From Cytobacillus firmus (GTDB lineage: Bacteria; Bacillota; Bacilli; Bacillales; Cytobacillaceae), in the NCBI RefSeq assembly GCF_023657595.1, contig NZ_CP098323.1, forward strand, positions 4,302,001 to 4,366,000: a stretch of 64,000 bases of DNA. The letters are read 5' to 3'. Position numbers and translations under genes: made by a program. This document shows positions 9,937 to 32,885 of this stretch, one piece after another; the first letter of the stretch is position 1; every line of letters starts with the position of its first letter. The notes under the pieces are model-generated. The model was not told the origin of the DNA. It was given only the letters and a program-made list of their open reading frames with translations, and did no database searches.

Positions 9937-10908
9937 TTAAACTTTATCAACAGGAATAAAATAAAGTTTACCTTTCTTATTTCCTTCACTTACTTTGCAA
10001 GTTTGCTGAAGAATCCGCTTTGCCGTATCACTGGATATGCTGCCTAAAAAATCTCTGGCTTCTTTATTGGTTATAGAGGTTTTAATCAGCAGAGCATAAT
10101 CCTTTAATGCTTGATTATGTGCATCCTGAGAAACATGGCTGCATCTTAAACACTTCCAGTTACCGTGAACCCTGTTCATAGGAAACGATAAACAGCCTGG
10201 ACATTGGACACCCTTTATCAAATCAGTTTTCTGTAGTGCATATCTTTGAAAAATATCCATTTCTACTGGAGTATGGTCAGCTATCAGACGGGAATATAAT
10301 TTCTTGACCTGTCTCGGGGTTAGGAAAGGGGATGTGAACTTTTTATCATAGAATCTCATGTTGCTGATGATATCCGAAGAGGGGATTACAAAATTAGGGG
10401 TTATTTTATCGCGGGGATCAAATTTGATTACGGTGCGTTCATTTGCGATAACAACCAGGGGTACTATCGGAAGTGCGGGGAAACCATACCGTTCCAGCCA
10501 ATCCCTTAAATGCTCTGTCTGCCGTTTCACCTGTGCCACCGGGTCGGCAAAGCCTTCCTCCTTGCCTTCAATGGTACGGATTATTTGTTTAAATAAGGAA
10601 TTGAAGAAGATAGAACCTGATATATTTTTCACTTCGAGAATGGATATAAAAAAAGGGGTTAGGAGGAGGACATCGATTTGAAAGAAATGCTTGCCATTCA
10701 AAAGCCTTAAATCATTGAATATTAAATAATCCTTGCCGGGGAGGCAGCTTAAAGGATATTCAAGGAATTTTTCACCTAAATATCCTGCCTTCTGTTTGGC
10801 ATAATCTGATTTTATCAAAGAGTATTTTGGATGAACTTCCGGCAATCTTTTCAATAATGCCTCCAATTTTAGCAAAGTAATTGGTTTTGTCCTGGGTTTT
10901 GCAATCAA
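9937..10908 (-). CDS. NERD domain protein with C-terminal zinc ribbon (paralogue 1)
   Basis: Nuclease-related (NERD) protein of 323 residues; function unknown. The NERD core carries GEK (E46), then QIDVLLL (D79) and ILEVKNISG (E92, K94), the D...ExK order of PD-(D/E)xK nucleases. A C-terminal ribbon has CPGC and CLRC pairs (about residues 237-257), followed by an alpha-helical tail. It is 30-40% similar by eye to the protein at 22443-23435 along its whole length, with the same zinc ribbon. A 20-21 bp periodic DNA array starts about 80 bases upstream of its start codon. Single gene. DNA cleavage is inferred from the fold only. Confidence 0.8.
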   Translation of the reverse strand: MIAKPRTKPITLLKLEALLKRLPEVHPKYSLIKSDYAKQKAGYLGEKFLEYPLSCLPGKDYLIFNDLRLLNGKHFFQIDVLLLTPFFISILEVKNISGSIFFNSLFKQIIRTIEGKEEGFADPVAQVKRQTEHLRDWLERYGFPALPIVPLVVIANERTVIKFDPRDKITPNFVIPSSDIISNMRFYDKKFTSPFLTPRQVKKLYSRLIADHTPVEMDIFQRYALQKTDLIKGVQCPGCLSFPMNRVHGNWKCLRCSHVSQDAHNQALKDYALLIKTSITNKEARDFLGSISSDTAKRILQQTCKVSEGNKKGKLYFIPVDKV

Positions 10909-10991
10909 TTTATCACTCCTCTATTTATTTTACAGAAAGAATTCGACTCTTCGGCATGATTTCCTTCCATTTGAAAGATTAGGTTTGAATT

Positions 10992-11061
10992 TATCAGCAA
11001 AATTTTAACAATATCGGCGAAAAAAAGATAATATCAGCGAAATCGGAGGTTTTATGAGCGA
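10992..11061. repeat. 20-21 bp periodic array 1 (core TATCRGCGA)
   Basis: Four core words, TATCAGCAA (10992), TATCGGCGA (11012), TATCAGCGA (11032) and TATGAGCGA (11053), start 20, 20 and 21 bases apart, with AT-rich unrelated sequence between. The array lies just upstream of NERD paralogue 1. Confidence 0.6.
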
Positions 11062-11169
11062 AACTAAAAACAGCCCCCAATTCTGAGGACTGCGGCATCA
11101 AAACCAACAACAATTACATTCTCCATGCCAGCGGCAGCCAAAAAGACCCCATCTCTGGAGCCTTGTCCC

Positions 11170-15968: not shown

Positions 15969-16050
15969 ACAAAAAGACTCCTGCCAGTTACCACATAACT
16001 GACAGGAGTCATTAGCCAAAAGGCGGTTAAAGGTGAACTCCATCACCTAA
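15969..16050 (-). promoter_or_regulatory. Fluoride riboswitch (crcB motif) with terminator
   Basis: On the minus strand GGTGATGGAGTTCACC opens the motif, followed by TTAACCGCC and GGCTAATGACTCCTG. The last part pairs with CAGGAGTC, which is followed by TTTTTG, forming the expression-platform terminator. These conserved blocks and their order are those of the crcB motif. It sits directly upstream of the two crcB genes. Confidence 0.95.
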
Positions 16051-16115
16051 TAAGACAAATCTTTACTAACACTATAAAACATATTAACAAGGATTAAAAG
16101 ACCTTTATCCCTAAT

Positions 16116-17635: not shown

Positions 17636-17660
17636 AACCACCAAATATGTATTTGGTGGA
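17636..17660 (-). terminator. Terminator of ssrA
   Basis: Minus strand CCACCAAAT-acat-ATTTGGTGG followed by TTTTTT; the left arm includes the encoded CCA end of tmRNA. Confidence 0.9.
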
Positions 17661-18013
17661 GACGGAGGGAGTCGAACCCTCGTCCAGAAATATCGGCACT
17701 TAAGCTTCTACGAGTGTAGTCGATATATTCGCGATTCGCTGGTCCTTATGCCTATCGACGGGCGTCCGGCCAGCTAGCCTGGTTGTTCTCTTCCTTCATC
17801 CTCAGGCGGTGGAATCCGGCGTAGCCCACTAAGAGTGAGTCCGCTACCCTACCACATGGGCGATGGAGGGGCGAACCGCTAAAGGCCTATTAGGCAGCTA
17901 AAGCGAAGTTGTTTTGAGTTTTGCCAGTTATTGGCTTTGACGTTTTAACGAGGCCGATCCCCTCGACTCGCAACCTAAGCTCGAACTATCCCTGTCGAAT
18001 CCGTAGCGTCCCC
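17654..18013 (-). ncRNA. ssrA: Transfer-messenger RNA (tmRNA)
   Basis: Rescues stalled ribosomes by trans-translation with SmpB. The 5' end GGGGACG pairs over seven bases with CGTCTCC at the 3' end, followed by A and an encoded CCA. The TGGACGAGGGTTCGACTCCC T-arm and the 5' segment GGATTCGACAGGG are diagnostic. The tag frame (17925-17890) starts at GGC and reads GKTQNNFALAA before TAA; with the alanine carried on the tmRNA the tag is AGKTQNNFALAA. Length 360. smpB, its protein partner, is upstream on the same strand, as in B. subtilis. Confidence 0.97.
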
Positions 18014-18141
18014 ATTATAATAGGTCTGCGCCGAATCTTATTCAGCACGCTGACGTTCGGATAAGCTCGAAATAGATGAGCTAAAGTTTGTGTCACTCGC
18101 TGTGACAATTACTATTATAGCACACTGAACAAATTTTTCAA
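18014..18141 (-). promoter_or_regulatory. ssrA promoter and 5' leader with hairpin
   Basis: TTGAAA (18141-18136), 16-base spacer, TATAAT (18119-18114). Transcription from here would add a leader of about 90 bases before the mature 5' end. The leader begins with the hairpin TGTCAC-agcga-GTGACA (18107-18091). Removal by RNase P is the general rule for tmRNA. Confidence 0.7.
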
Positions 18142-18157
18142 TTGTAAGGTTCTGGAT

Positions 18158-18625
18158 TTACATTTTCTGCCTTTCGCGGAAAGCACGCTCAACCTCACGC
18201 TTGGCTTCTTTCTTCTTCAGATCCTCACGCTTGTCATATTTCTTTTTACCCCTCGCCAGGCCAATTAAAACTTTTGCATAACCATTCTTGAGGTACATTT
18301 TTAATGGAACGATCGAGTAGCCGACTTCCTTAGACTCACCAATCAGCTTGCTGATTTCTTTTCTGTGCAGGAGAAGCTTTCTGGTCCTTAGCGGATCGTG
18401 ATTGTAACGGTTTCCCTGCTCATAAGGACTGACATGCATGCCGAAAAGATAGATTTCATTGTTTTGAATTCTTGCATATGAGTCCTTCAGATTCACCTTG
18501 CCCGCTCGGATCGATTTAATCTCCGTCCCCTGCAGAACAATTCCCGCTTCATATGTTTCTTCTATAGCATAGTCATGATAGGCCTTTTTATTTTGCGCAA
18601 CCATTTTGCCAGTTCCTTTTGGCAT
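18158..18625 (-). CDS. smpB: SsrA-binding protein SmpB
   Basis: Binds tmRNA and delivers it to stalled ribosomes. 155 residues from the ATG at 18625 behind AAAGGGGGGATTC; the ORF has 16 extra codons upstream, but [19 protein letters not shown] is the natural N-terminus. The OB-fold segments [21 protein letters not shown] and [20 protein letters not shown] and the basic C-terminal tail ([26 protein letters not shown]) are all typical. The gene lies 145 bases upstream of ssrA and downstream of rnr. Confidence 0.97.
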
Positions 18626-18774
18626 GTTGAATCCCCCTTTGCTCCCCTTTCCTGTTATCAGGAAATGCAGCATCCGTTCTCTAGCGGTTCCTCTATTATA
18701 GCAAAATTGCGTGCCCCTCTCAACGAGGAGCCTTGCCGGGAAGGAAAGAGAGAGCCTTTAAGGCCCTCCCGCTT

Positions 18775-21099
18775 TTACCTCTTCTTTTTCTTCCGCTTTG
18801 CTTTTGGCGCATTTTCGTAATGCTTTTTCTCTTTTTTCTTTCTTGGACCGCCTGAACTGTTTCCTTTGCCCTGATCAGACTTCCCTCTGCGCGGCTTTTT
18901 CTCGGTGCTGCCAGTCTTGAACACTTTTGGCGCTTCCCGAGTTTCCCGTCTGCGGGTGCCCTTCATGCCGACGATTTCAAAATCAATCGAGCGTTCGTCT
19001 TTGTTTACATTAACGACACGGACTGTAATCTCGTCGCCGATGCGGTAGACATTGCCTGTACGCTCCCCGATCATCGCCATCTGGCGCTCGTCATAGCGGT
19101 AATAATCGTCTGTCATATAGCTGACATGGATAAGTCCTTCAATCGTGTTTGGAAGCTCGACAAACATGCCAAAGTTTGTAACAGAGCTGATGATCCCATC
19201 ATATTCCTCGCCGATTTTGTCAGCCATATATTCCGCTTTCTTCAGTTCATCTGTTTCGCGTTCTGCTTCAACTGCACGGCGCTCCATATTGGAAGAGTGC
19301 TCAGCAATATCAGGCAGCTGTACATTCCATTTTTCCCTTGTCGCCTGATCCAGCTTGCCTTCAATTAAGTAGGTGCGGATAAGTCTGTGGACAATTAAGT
19401 CCGGGTAACGGCGGATCGGTGATGTGAAGTGTGTGTAAAACTCTGTTGATAACCCGAAGTGCCCAAGGCTCTCTTCAAAGTATTTCGCCTGCTGCATAGA
19501 GCGCAGCATCACTGTGCTGACAACCATTTCTTCCGGTTTTCCCTGAACCTCTTCGATGATTTCCTGAAGGGCCCGCGGGTGAACGGAATTGGCTGTTCCT
19601 TTTACGATATAGCCAAAGTTGGTGATAAACTCGAAGAATCTTCTAAGCTTATCTTCCTTCGGATCTTCATGGATACGGTAAATGAACGGTACATCCATCC
19701 AATGGAAGTGCTCAGCAACAGTTTCATTGGCTGCGAGCATAAACTCTTCAATCAGGCGCTCTGCAATCGAGCGTTCGCGCAATGCGACTTCTGTCGGGTT
19801 GCCCTCTTCATCCACAATGACCTTCGCTTCTTTAAAATCAAAGTCGATGGCTCCGCGATGCATTCTCTTTTTACGGAGAATTAGAGAAAGCTCCTTCATC
19901 AGTTCGAACATCGGCACAAGCGGTTGGTATCTGTTGATAAGTTCTTCGTCCTGCTCTTCTAAAATCTTATTCACATCTGAATAAGTCATTCGTTCCGTTG
20001 TTTTAATCACACTCTGGAAAATCTCGTGATTCACTACTTCTCCATCCGATGTGATTTCCATCTCACAAGAAAGGGTAAGCCGGTCCACTTTTGGATTCAA
20101 TGAGCAAATGCCATTTGATAAGCGATGCGGGATCATCGGGATAACCCGGTCCACTAAATACACAGAGGTTGCCCGCTCTTCCGCTTCCCTGTCAATCGGG
20201 GAATCCTCACGGACATAGTATGTGACATCGGCAATATGAACGCCAAGCTTGTAATTGCCGTTATCCATTTTTTTAACCATTACTGCATCATCAAGATCCT
20301 TTGCATCCGCACCGTCTATTGTGACAATAACTTCATTTCTCAAATCACGGCGGTTTTCAAGCTCACTTGGATCAATCGTATCCGGCGTTTCTTCAGCCTG
20401 CTTAAGCACCTCATCAGGAAACTCAAGCGGAAGGCCATGCTTGTGAATAACAGAGAGAATATCCACACCGGGGTCGTTTTTATGCCCAAGTATGTCAATA
20501 ACTTCTCCTTCTGCACTCTTTCTGCCTTCTGGATAAGTGGTCAGTTTTACAACGACCTTATGCCCTTCAACTGCACCTTTTGATGCTGCTTTGGGGATAA
20601 AAATATCGCTGGCAAACTTTTTATCATCCGGGATCACAAATCCAAAGTGCTTGCTTTCCGTATACGTTCCAACAATTTGTGTCACACCGCGCTCTAAGAT
20701 GCGGACAATCGTGCCTTCCCGCCTCTGGCCGGAACTCTCAGACGTCACACGCGCGAGAACGATATCTCCATTTAAGGCATTATTTGTTTCATTGGGCGGG
20801 ATAAATATATCATCCATTCCCTGCTCTTCCGGAATGACAAAGGCAAATCCCTTTGCATGGCCGGAAAGCTTCCCGCGGATCAGGTTCATTTTTTCAGGCA
20901 GGCCATAGCGATTGCTTCTCGTTCTGACAACAAGCCCTTTTTCCTCCATGACAACAAGCGCCTTAACGAAATCTTTGAAGCCTGTGGAATCCTCAATTCC
21001 AAATGCGGCTTCCAGCTCCTGGACCGTCAATGGCTTATAGGCTTCATCCTTCATATAATGAAGCAGCTTGTCGATCAGCTGTTGTATATTATTTTCCAT
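18775..21099 (-). CDS. rnr: Ribonuclease R
   Basis: 3'-5' exoribonuclease that degrades structured RNA and non-stop mRNA and works with tmRNA. 774 residues: N-terminal winged helix (about 1-75), two cold-shock domains, the RNB catalytic domain with [14 protein letters not shown] (the catalytic aspartates, around 270), then the S1 domain ([18 protein letters not shown], about 635) and a Lys/Arg-rich tail. The start follows GAGGGATGAAGAT. It lies 36 bases after the esterase gene and is probably cotranscribed with it, as in the B. subtilis secG-yvaK-rnr-smpB cluster. Confidence 0.97.
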
Positions 21100-21135
21100 A
21101 TCTTCATCCCTCCTCAGGGAGATTTTCTTTTGTTA

Positions 21136-21882
21136 TTATTCTTCCCAATCAAGCTTTTCTAAAAACTCATATACATCTTCATGCAGCTGGTCACGCTCTT
21201 TATCAAGAGTAATGACGTGCCCGGATTCTTCGTACCACTTGAGCTTCTTTAAGTCATTCTCCACTTCATTGAAAATGATGTTAGCGCTGTCCGTGTTGAT
21301 CATATGGTCATGTCGTGCCTGTACAACAAATGTCGGGGAGTAAATCATATCCACATGATTGCGTACATCCGCGATCAGCTCCTGTAGTGCCTTTAATGTA
21401 TTCATCGGTGTTTTTTGGAACTCTTCCATTTCCTGCTCAATTTGGTCTTCCGTCTTTCCTTCAAGTCTCTTATATTCTCTTGCGTAGCTCAGAATTCCTT
21501 CATACATGACTTCTTCGCTTTTTATGTACATAGGTGCGCACATCGGGACAATACCCTTTACAGGTACAGTGTAACCCAATTTAAGGGAAAATACGCCGCC
21601 AAGTGAAAGTCCGGCCACTGCAATTTCTTTATGTCCCTTATTTTTCAGAAATCCGTACCCTTCCATTACATCTTTCCACCAGTCTTCCGGGCCTGTATGA
21701 ACAAGCTCTTCGGGCGGAACCCCATGTCCTTTATATTGCGGCGCATGGCAGGTGTAGCCCTTTGTTTCGAGAAACCTTGCCATCATTCTGACATCTGCTG
21801 TATTTCCGGTAAACCCATGCAGCAGCAGGACTGCTCTGTTTCCATTTCCAAATGTAAACGGTTTTGGTGCAACAACTCTCAT
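21136..21882 (-). CDS. est: Carboxylesterase (Est30/YvaK family)
   Basis: Alpha/beta-hydrolase of 248 residues that hydrolyses short-chain esters, cytosolic. The oxyanion segment [14 protein letters not shown], nucleophile elbow GLSLGG (Ser about 94) and C-terminal ESGHVITLD (catalytic His) are all present; the Asp is in [12 protein letters not shown]. Size and motifs fit Geobacillus Est30 and B. subtilis YvaK. Located between secG and rnr as in B. subtilis. A perfect 16-bp palindrome lies 42 bases upstream of its start. Confidence 0.93.
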
Positions 21883-21923
21883 TGATAAAACTCCTTTTAC
21901 CTTATGATTCCTATAATTTTATT

Positions 21924-21939
21924 AATCAAACGTTTGATT
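21924..21939. promoter_or_regulatory. 16-bp palindrome upstream of est (copy 1)
   Basis: AATCAAACGTTTGATT, a perfect palindrome between secG and est. The same 16 bases occur as the centre of a longer palindrome at 62150-62173. It has the size and symmetry of a repressor operator (TetR-type proteins use such sites); the cognate protein is unknown. Confidence 0.55.
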
Positions 21940-22018
21940 GAATCTGCATTCCTTATTTTTAGCAAACAGCGGGGGAACATGCCAATAAAAAGCTTTCTTA
22001 AGCGAAAACAGCCGAAGA

Positions 22019-22050
22019 AAAATAAAAGCCTGACCTTCTGAAGGCCAGGC
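22019..22050 (-). terminator. Terminator of secG
   Basis: Minus strand GCCTGGCCTT-cag-AAGGTCAGGC, one mismatch, followed by TTTTATTTTT. Confidence 0.85.
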
Positions 22051-22061
22051 GCTGCGTTCAT

Positions 22062-22295
22062 TTATATCGCAAAATAAGAAACTAAAACAGTAAGTACAAA
22101 GAACAAGACAGAAAGAACAACCGTGATGCGGTGAAGAACCAGATCAATACCGCGTGCTTTTTGCTTTCCAAAAAGCTGCTCTGCTCCTCCTGAAATGGCA
22201 CCGGAAAGACCTGCGCTTTTACCAGATTGAAGGAGTACAACTACAATAAGACCAATCGAAACAATGACTAAAAGGGTAATCAATAATGTATGCAT
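22062..22295 (-). CDS. secG: Preprotein translocase subunit SecG
   Basis: Small membrane subunit of the SecYEG export channel, 77 residues. Two transmembrane helices (about 3-24 and 51-75) are joined by a cytoplasmic loop containing [20 protein letters not shown], the conserved SecG motif. It follows AGGAGGTGGC. It heads the secG-est-rnr-smpB-ssrA cluster but has its own terminator. Confidence 0.96.
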
Positions 22296-22442
22296 GAAGC
22301 CACCTCCTGAAAACGTACAATCACATTATTCTTAATTTATCACATTATGGTGGTATTCACAATAAGATTTTGGCAGGACCTGTTAGCTGGAAGGACTTTT
22401 ATAGCTGTTCAGAGAATTTATATTGTGAAAGGACTGATGCCT

Positions 22443-23435
22443 GTGATAGTAAAAGAACGAAAGGTTCCTGATTTTATAAGAAGTATGGAGGTACTGTTGA
22501 GAAGGCTGCCAGGAACACATTCGAAAAGAGCATTAATTGAAAATGATCTAATCAAGCGGAGGGCTGGTTTTCGTGGAGAAGAAGCCGTAGATTATTTCTT
22601 AAAAGATTTAGCCGAGTTCATGATTCTGAAGGATATTCGGCTTTCCAACGGATACGGCGGCTTCTATCAAATCGATGTGCTACTACTATGTTCAAACTTC
22701 CTTATTATCCTCGAAATTAAGAACATCTCCGGTACTATTTATTTTGACCCCACATTTAATCAGCTGATCCAGAGCAAGCATGAGAATGAAAGAGGGTTTC
22801 TTGATCCCTTGATACAAGCTGAAAGACAGCAAAAGGAACTTGCAAAATTGTTGGCTGATAGAAAGATTCGCACACCCATTGAGTACCTTGTTGTAATCAG
22901 CAATCCGTCTACTGTTATCAAGACTTCCTCTTATCACAAAATGGCCTTAGAAAAGGTGCTGCATGCGAGCCATTTGAGAGAAAGGATAGAAAAGCTAAAA
23001 GTGAAATATCCAGAAGAGAAATTAACATACAGAGAGATCAGAAAGTTAAGCAGAGCTATTATTAAAGAACACACTCCTGCTAATTACAATGTTCTGAAAT
23101 ACTATGACATAGATATAAAAGAGATTATTACCGGGATTCAATGTCCGGCATGCAGCAGATTTTCAATGAAAAGGGTGCGGGGCACCTGGAAATGCAGCAG
23201 TTGCCAATCTGCTGATAAGGAAGCACATATTAGAACCCTCCATGATTACCTCCTTTTAATCAGTTCCTCCATAACGAATCAGCAATTTCGGGAATTCACC
23301 CATCTATCCTCCTCAAATATTGCAAAAAAGCTGCTTACTGGAATGAAACTTCCCTATTCAGGTTCATTTAAGGACAGAAGCTACCAATTATCTGCCGATT
23401 TTTTTGAAGGACTTCATTTTACCGGCCGAAAATGA
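22443..23435 (+). CDS. NERD domain protein with C-terminal zinc ribbon (paralogue 2)
   Basis: 330-residue paralogue of the protein at 9937-10908. The GTG at 22443 is chosen because MIVKERKVPDF lines up with the start of paralogue 1 (MIAKPRTKPIT) and AAAGGA lies 9 bases upstream; the open frame extends 32 codons further. NERD core: GEE, YQIDVLLL and ILEIKNISGTI (the D...ExK order). The zinc ribbon has CPAC and CSSC. Its final codons run into a 21-bp periodic array. Function unknown; nuclease activity is only inferred from the fold. Faces the convergent eno operon. Confidence 0.8.
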   Translation: MIVKERKVPDFIRSMEVLLRRLPGTHSKRALIENDLIKRRAGFRGEEAVDYFLKDLAEFMILKDIRLSNGYGGFYQIDVLLLCSNFLIILEIKNISGTIYFDPTFNQLIQSKHENERGFLDPLIQAERQQKELAKLLADRKIRTPIEYLVVISNPSTVIKTSSYHKMALEKVLHASHLRERIEKLKVKYPEEKLTYREIRKLSRAIIKEHTPANYNVLKYYDIDIKEIITGIQCPACSRFSMKRVRGTWKCSSCQSADKEAHIRTLHDYLLLISSSITNQQFREFTHLSSSNIAKKLLTGMKLPYSGSFKDRSYQLSADFFEGLHFTGRK

Positions 23436-23511
23436 ATATTTACCGGCCAATTTTTAATATTTACCGGCCAAATCTGGAAAAATACCGGCCAAACTGCCCC
23501 TTTTACCGGCC
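23421..23511. repeat. 21 bp periodic array 2 (core ACCGGCC)
   Basis: ACCGGCC begins at 23421, 23442, 23463, 23484 and 23505, exactly 21 bases apart each time. All but the last are followed by AA or GAAA, and most are preceded by TTT or AT-rich bases; the intervening bases differ. The first copy lies in the last codons of NERD paralogue 2; the rest fill the gap to the eno terminator. Confidence 0.8.
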
Positions 23512-23514
23512 AAG

Positions 23515-23549
23515 CCAAAAAAACAGCCGCCCCACCCGGGACGGCTGCA
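23515..23549 (-). terminator. Terminator of the glycolytic operon (after eno)
   Basis: Minus strand CAGCCGT...GCGGCTG stem with GC-rich centre, followed by TTTTTTTGG. Confidence 0.85.
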
Positions 23550-23558
23550 CAAGCAAGA

Positions 23559-24916
<1,358 letters not shown>

Positions 24917-24918
24917 AG

Positions 24919-28466
<3,548 letters not shown>

Positions 28467-28485
28467 AGCAAAAGGACCTCCTTAC

Positions 28486-28555
28486 CAGAAAAGCGGAAGC
28501 GCCTTGCCTGATGGCTCATAGACTAAAAGCCTCCAGGTTACGGAGCTAAGCACCA
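28486..28555. repeat. Remnant of a common Bacillus intergenic repeat
   Basis: AGAAAAGCGGAAGCGCC followed by a degenerate tail, in the gapA-pgk gap. The opening word is the one I associate with a frequent palindromic repeat of Bacillaceae; a related block (CCCCTAGGAGCCGCAGCTAG) lies inside the repeat element at 58608-58995. Recognition is from memory. Confidence 0.45.
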
Positions 28556-28582
28556 TCCCGGTTAAATAGTTTTACTTAAAAC

Positions 28583-28618
28583 AAAAGGGAGAGGGAATGT
28601 TTCCCTGCTCCCCTTTTA
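28583..28618 (-). terminator. Terminator-like hairpin after gapA
   Basis: Minus strand AAAAGGGGAGCAGGGAA-aca-TTCCCTCTCCCTTTT with a few unpaired bases, followed by GTTTTAAG. It may separate an abundant cggR-gapA message from the full operon transcript. Confidence 0.65.
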
Positions 28619-28724
28619 CCCTTATCCATTATAGACGTTAGCGATTTGAATATCCAACAAGATGAGGTGTTTTTTCAGAGAAAAAATTCAGCTTGTGAAT
28701 GCTTCGCAAAACGAATATTTTTGA

Positions 28725-29759
<1,035 letters not shown>

Positions 29760-32683: not shown

Positions 32684-32833
32684 GCGGATTTTATGGATTT
32701 TTTTGAAATTAAGTCTTCTATTTAGGAAGTTTATTAACTTTATTTGCGGATAGAGGAATTTTATTTGCGGGTATGGCCCATTTACTTGCGGAGAAACTTT
32801 TTTATATACGGATCGGCTGGATTCATTAGCGGA
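32684..32833. repeat. 20-21 bp periodic array 3 (core GCGGA)
   Basis: GCGGA or close variants start at 32684, 32746, 32767 (GCGGG), 32788, 32808 (ACGGA) and 32829, steps of 21, 21, 20 and 21 from 32746 on. The 62-base gap before that is three periods, with degraded words (TGAAA at 32704, GGAAG at 32725). Copies 32746-32788 are preceded by TTTATTT-like bases. Lies in the 730-base stretch between rpoN and clpP. Confidence 0.65.
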
Positions 32834-32885
32834 GAGCGTAAAAAGTAAAAACTCCCTGTCCATATCAGACAAAGAGTTTTGCTAG

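Follow-up and report, generated by a model that had tools for sequence, protein, structure and literature searches.

The window analyzed here, a 64,000-nucleotide stretch of the Cytobacillus firmus chromosome (contig NZ_CP098323.1, positions 4,302,001 to 4,366,000), contains a short phased repeat array that abuts NERD2, a gene whose product matches the NERD family profile PF08378 (E=1.9e-20; 73.9 bits against a gathering cutoff of 22.1), and this array and gene are the subject of our analysis. NERD2 (22437..23435, + strand) encodes 332 aa from the ATG at 22437. The start is our choice, made with reference to an empty-site comparison; the start given by the open reading frame tool (22347) falls in DNA common to relatives that lack the gene. 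The array (23418..23511, + strand) is chromosomal and lies between NERD2 and eno; this and the other neighbors of NERD genes, including secG and sigL, carry the names that we take to be theirs by eye from their translations.

As the first-pass annotation of this DNA had reported, five ACCGGCC words start at positions 23421, 23442, 23463, 23484, and 23505, in exact steps of 21 bp, a spacing that bears out the equivalence to two helical turns. The NERD2 coding sequence runs into the first copy, which supplies its stop codon and its C-terminal residues FTGRK, and the 3' end of the array falls just short of an inverted repeat (~23525-23547) that by its appearance looks like the eno terminator. The bases preceding the cores are TTT-like in four copies and AAT in one. 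The accompanying claim that only core and phase are conserved also held: identity within the array is 1.00 for the cores, while the four complete 14-nt spacers are 0.45 identical compared to the 0.34 expected from composition, which is barely above that expectation. Comparable phasing was not reproduced by shuffling, as dinucleotide shuffles of the window (20 for each of three settings) gave no array above our thresholds at periods 20-22, and none of 2,000 shuffles of a 2-kb region contained four identical 7-mers at exactly 21 nt.

NERD2 combines a nuclease-type core with a predicted C-terminal winged helix

The AlphaFold2 (AF2) model of NERD2, with a predicted local distance difference test (pLDDT) score of 91, shows a PD-(D/E)XK nuclease core with its catalytic residues at residues 62-163 (22620..22925, + strand). 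Q78, D80, and K95 are invariant across 21 sequences, and the E of the ExK motif is replaced by D in some. A Zn-ribbon region follows at residues 233-258 (23133..23210, + strand), with C253 and C256 invariant and a match to Pfam Zn_ribbon_IS1595 that falls below the cut-off (E=0.016). AF2 secondary structure places a winged helix at residues 263-324 (23223..23408, + strand), with its recognition helix at 293-302 and its wing at 303-317. From this and the covariation described below, we propose that this winged helix is the reader of the core. The earlier comparison of the array to protein-bound iterons fits as an idea, with the adjacent NERD protein as the candidate that would bind it.

A nuclease-type fold beside a repeat array could also belong to a defense system, in which the arrays would be self markers, decoys, or targets of a restriction-like nuclease acting against foreign DNA. 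The PD-(D/E)XK fold and weak NERD-domain matches to the defense kinases PglW and MAD6 speak for this possibility. However, no defense-family match came near the curated cut-off, with PADLOC returning PglW only; those neighbors of NERD2 and of its paralogue NERD1 that could be recognized by eye are housekeeping or unrelated genes; and we found neither confirmed relatives in viral contigs nor plasmid matches at 1e-15. We consider a defense role very unlikely.

Phased arrays are abundant in the genome

We searched 1.664 Mb of the 4.98-Mb genome at every period between 12 and 45 for runs in which an 8-mer was present four or more times, tolerating up to one mismatch and a jitter of one base. The scan returned 25 array loci at 20/21 bp (17 at period 20 and 24 at period 21, overlapping) and between zero and two loci at each remaining period, while one shuffle per segment produced a single match at period 36 and none at 20-22 or any other period. 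Among the 25 loci, one (4411692) lies in a coding repeat, and a few are adjacent tandem copies. Across the remaining 24 arrays, core identity was 0.93, and spacer identity was 0.35 compared to 0.29 expected.

The commonest core, TGCAAATAG/CTATTTGCA, forms 156 adjacent pairs genome-wide, with none found by the reversed-pattern control. ACCGGCC forms 22 adjacent pairs at eight places in this genome (345843, 369230, 792513, 1026314, 4325421, 4424321, 4805208, and 4870785 of G000); the reversed pattern is not a fair control for this core because it matches the arrays themselves. The suggestion in the first-pass annotation that each locus has its own core was thus not supported, since ACCGGCC recurs at these eight places and cores go with NERD clades.

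Arrays adjoin genes of the NERD2 subfamily

Each core recurs in a number of arrays and goes with the member of the NERD subfamily that it adjoins. This genome has seven NERD matches, four of them in the NERD2 subfamily, and we counted an array as adjacent when at least four copies lay within 330 bp upstream or 260 bp downstream of the gene. All four subfamily members have an adjacent array, with distinct cores (TTACCGGCC, TTGCAAATAG, TATCCGCACA, and TTTCGCTGATA), and by the same test the other three NERD loci of this genome have none. An array was likewise present at 24 of 25 related loci from named genomes (the exception being L025) and at 28 of the 29 loci from the genus (the exception being L223), where the 29 are the best match per genome in which a locus was returned, selected from a much larger number of matches. 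Among 398 genomes sampled across the phylum regardless of arrays, nine of the 11 subfamily loci outside this genome had an array, and L304 and L307 did not. Once exact duplicates are removed, the pooled loci with an adjacent array number 61 of 65 for the subfamily (61 of 63, plus L304 and L307), a count in which the loci are related rather than independent and some arrays are weak (four copies, for example at L012 and L290). For comparison, an array occurred in three of 400 random 300-nt flank windows and in none of 400 shuffles, the null windows being single and the NERD loci having two windows each. More divergent NERD proteins, comprising the three other loci of this genome and seven from the phylum sample, had an adjacent array in two of ten cases (L302 and L305).

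Downstream arrays start a median of 10.5 bp past the stop codon, and upstream arrays stop short of the start codon by a median of 87 bp (quartiles 129 and 83). The median copy number of NERD-adjacent arrays is five. Among 353 array gaps, from a search that permitted 19-23, we observed 199 of 21 bp, 149 of 20 bp, four of 19 bp, and one of 22 bp. Where a locus has arrays on both sides, the same orientation fits better in all 14 cases, and in 12 of the 14 the position weight matrices of the upstream and downstream arrays have a similarity of at least 0.76. At L016, the spacers too are common to the two arrays.

These findings bear on whether the arrays could be ordinary slippage tandem repeats that have decayed and adjoin NERD genes by hitchhiking. 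Tandem Repeats Finder does call the ACCGGCC array (period 21, 3.6 copies, 78% matches), and tandem expansion is clear in a few long arrays (L052:14361-14920 and near 2994 kb). Slippage nevertheless sits poorly with the gap between core and spacer identity in the 24 arrays, with the restriction to the single period of 20/21 bp, with the adjacency at 61 of 65 subfamily loci, and with the similar cores that flank the gene on both sides, and we regard it as extremely unlikely.

Core divergence correlates with the winged helix

The winged helix is a somewhat better guide to the core than the rest of the protein is. In a covariation set of 46 loci, from which near-identical proteins had been removed, core distance correlated with winged-helix distance (r = 0.47) and with distance over the rest of the protein (r = 0.42), and the partial correlation for the winged helix given the rest was 0.27 (p = 0.0002). 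The five columns most tied to core change, out of 307, correspond to residues 287, 298, 294, 311, and 281; all lie in the winged helix, and they include recognition-helix and wing positions. Nine of the top 25 core-associated columns are in the winged helix (p = 0.03).

The secG-eno position offers a comparison at a single site. There, the wing [SL][FY]K[DN]R accompanies TTACCGGCC at nine loci (L001, L009, L010, L203, L205, L206, L207, L211, and L212) and the wing EKKSR accompanies TTATCGGCC at four (L008, L204, L208, and L210), without exception among the 13 loci, some of which are near-identical or are the same strain from two collections. Between L207 and L208, protein identity is 87% up to helix 3 and 46% beyond it.

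Arrays change among relatives while cores are conserved

Across 11 loci of the NERD2 array, the ACCGGCC mask is 0.92 identical, rising to 0.96 when the mask is shifted two bases (CGGCCAA), compared to 0.61 for the spacer phases. In a solo array compared across 19 loci, the core mask is 0.89 identical (0.95 when shifted), and the spacer is ~0.75 identical. The solo array at 345841 is mostly deleted in G007, one of the genomes compared. Six genomes, this one among them, carry a second solo array, which is partial in G016 and missing from the corresponding gap in G025, G026, and G007, and a third has expanded and contracted across 17 aligned loci, down to nothing in G008. Where the secG-eno interval lacks NERD2, it can show a short gap with a TTTTTGTGC-like remnant (L113, L116, L123, and L126) or a full array of TTTATGTGCGGATA, the core of another NERD paralogue (L120, L124, and L127). 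NERD2 is interrupted or partly deleted in G008, G016, G019, G020, and G022, with an array still adjoining.

Taking at least 60% identity, our own cut, as membership in the NERD2 clade, we found ACCGGCC pairs in all 13 genus genomes that carry the clade (5-41 pairs) versus seven of the 23 that do not; six of these seven are relatives with 2-11 pairs, and G003 has one isolated pair. Two further cores, TAGATAAA and ATCGGTCA, were tested with patterns taken from other NERD loci. TAGATAAA forms at least nine pairs in seven genomes, six of which (G007, G014, G015, G018, G025, and G026) have an array within 150 bp of a NERD match, the exception being G024; this comparison was made by eye, and the reversed-pattern control gave 12 in G000 and 15 in G006 because the control pattern also fits TGCAAATAGAT arrays. 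Among fully listed genomes, five have at least 10 pairs of ATCGGTCA (control 0): G001, G002, G008, and G014 have a NERD-adjacent array, and this genome, with 10 pairs, does not.

The behavior of the spacers is also relevant to the idea that the array acts as RNA, for instance as CRISPR-like guides or as a processed transcript, which the repeat-spacer layout adjoining a nuclease-like gene might suggest. The 11-14 nt spacers, however, drift between species rather than being replaced, and no Rfam family was found at gathering score at the window arrays, so we give this idea hardly any credence. In CRISPR arrays, the repeats measure about 23-47 bp and alternate with unique spacers of comparable length, next to cas genes. 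With cores of 7-10 bp and spacers of 11-14 bp, the present arrays are not of that kind, and no cas genes were recognized by eye among the open reading frames of at least 80 aa at 18000-29000.

Other arrays in the window and the genome

Similar arrays had been listed at 10992 and 32684 of the window; both exist, with differing cores, but the second is better placed at 32744-32836, away from NERD genes. The first (10985..11068, - strand) lies upstream of NERD1 (9937..10908, - strand), a paralogue in the same subfamily as NERD2, and consists of four TATCRGCGAAA-like (TTTCGCTGATA-like) cores with gaps of 20-21. The second (32744..32836, - strand) is a solo array of imperfect TCCGCAAATA cores, comprising five imperfect TTTGCGGA copies; it has no NERD neighbor and is flanked by sigL and a tRNA gene. 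The 530-bp region around it aligns to L008 (88%) and L017 (85%), whose orthologous arrays are better preserved and contain both TTTATGTGCGGATA and TTTATTTGCGGATA; TTTATGTGCGGATA is also the type of core that adjoins the paralogue L003 (G000:3097656).

On the 4.98-Mb chromosome, none of the eight ACCGGCC pair sites is more than 1.03 Mb from dnaA (position 1); TGCAAATA arrays occur also far from dnaA. Some TGCAAATA arrays are very long or repeated (L052:7040-7810, L052:14361-14920, G000:2994207-2995014, and G000:961096-961919), and they include one array segment of ~220 bp that is tandemly repeated as well as arrays of dozens of copies with recurring spacers. At L003, the upstream array of the NERD paralogue is present in three tandem copies of ~255 bp (G000:3098692-3099295). 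An GTTAGATAAA array (G000:336173-336290; L069:16173-16290) starts 185 bp 3' of a 5S rRNA gene, and this core is also found no more than about 650 bp from several contig starts in the draft genomes G007, G024, and G026, as expected if it is located at rRNA operons there. The window further contains a fluoride riboswitch (15996-16056) and a tmRNA (17654-18013), both on the - strand.

Discussion

The ACCGGCC array very probably serves the neighboring NERD protein as a set of sites. The product of the gene that the array abuts would bind along it at sites that recur every two helical turns; the NERD2 winged helix would read the 7-10 bp core, and neighboring NERD2 subunits would align along one face of the DNA. 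In this reading, each subfamily member has its own core, placed just after its stop codon and/or upstream of its start (typically ending 80-130 bp before it), as well as in intergenic solo arrays. Whether the NERD gene and its arrays also work like a pair of repetitive extragenic palindromic (REP) sequence and REP-associated tyrosine transposase (RAYT) is a weaker inference, and we put such pairing at slightly short of even. Under such a scheme, the resident nuclease-type protein would co-evolve with the non-coding repeats cognate to it. Nicking or cutting at the arrays would stimulate recombination, through which they would expand, contract, and become homogenized, and new ones would occasionally be seeded. 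On balance, we favor the explanation that joins phased binding sites to a REP/RAYT-like gene/array pair; it starts from what was observed, namely the arrays and their adjacency to NERD genes, the sharing of cores, their covariation and conservation, and the differences among relatives in copy number and in presence or absence, and from these we infer binding, oligomerization, nuclease activity, and mode of spread.

Several observations weigh against this explanation. The upstream and downstream cores differ at L015 (similarity 0.68) and L020 (0.49). For related loci, the same orientation is better in only 101 of 138 pairs, and the core TGACCGATAT has opposite orientations relative to the gene in two NERD clades (L213/L214 versus L219/L228). 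The correlation of core distance with the rest of the protein remains significant given the winged helix (partial r = 0.16, p = 0.002), relatedness was controlled by a partial Mantel test only, and the block of helix 3 plus wing has a median of 0.018, not above the 0.030 of the whole winged helix. Because array and wing are adjacent, their joint change at the secG-eno position could be explained by one conversion tract, with no need for recognition. The solo array at 345841 left traces at the same site in all 19 aligned loci (of 36 genomes), and dispersal is therefore slow; no clear target-site duplication was seen at the site compared with and without an array. G015 and G017 have an ATCGGCC-type NERD2, yet they carry 41 and 17 ACCGGCC pairs, respectively, and nine ATCGGCC pairs each, indicating that solo arrays lag. 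Core decay after NERD2 loss was weak and inconsistent in two solo arrays. Finally, for the arrays at 194507 and 336173, a cognate NERD was not found in this genome.

Alternatively, the arrays could be chromosome-organizing or regulatory sites, with NERD as a nucleoid- or partition-like factor or an autoregulator, kept by host selection and not through their own spread. We consider this account unlikely.

Both REP/RAYT pairs (REPtrons) and the NERD system have a resident nuclease-type gene beside cognate short non-coding repeats, further intergenic copies elsewhere, more than one pair per genome, and co-evolution of protein and repeat. RAYT (TnpAREP) is described as an HuH enzyme acting on single-stranded palindromic hairpins (PMC8266576, PMC3116915). 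The NERD protein instead has a PD-(D/E)XK fold, a Zn ribbon, and a winged helix, and scans of NERD2 against Pfam, PHROGs, and NCBIfam matched the NERD domain and no HuH transposase. Its direct repeats are in helical phase and lack the REP palindrome. Of the REPtron hallmarks, repeats beside the gene and dispersed between genes with the same core are present, while an HuH (Y1) transposase and palindromic repeats in inverted pairs are absent, the model showing a PD-(D/E)XK core. We therefore reject membership in the REP/RAYT family, as there is neither an HuH enzyme nor a palindromic repeat.

Plasmid iterons and partition centromere arrays are likewise direct repeats of near 20-22 bp beside the gene for a DNA-binding protein, which binds them through a winged helix. 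The NERD arrays share the repeat length, the position, and, if NERD2 binds as proposed, the winged helix; they differ in being chromosomal, in having many dispersed copies, and in the nuclease domain of the protein. A replicon iteron array, which would belong to a plasmid or phage origin with a Rep gene, can be set aside: the array is chromosomal, plasmids gave no match at 1e-15, and no relative in viral contigs was confirmed. NERD2 does share the profile of family PF08378, and literature searches aimed at such arrays, partial in coverage, yielded no report of cognate repeats for that family. The same searches gave no description of such an array family, in line with the statement in the first-pass annotation that none was known. 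The partnership of NERD gene and array looks to be one that has not yet been described.

More tentatively, we suggest a new protein-repeat system in which a PD-(D/E)XK nuclease would read the phased core set by its winged helix and wing, themselves interchangeable. The nuclease would co-evolve with dozens of dispersed arrays, maintaining or spreading them through recombination that it stimulates, and a single Bacillaceae genome would contain several orthogonal pairs. If the proposed explanation is true, NERD proteins of the NERD2 subfamily gain defined DNA targets, and a large class of Bacillaceae intergenic repeats gains a protein partner. That the wing changes at a single gene position together with C to T in the core points to a recognition code that could be read. 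The NERD/array pairs would then represent a second, unrelated solution to the role of REP/RAYT pairs.
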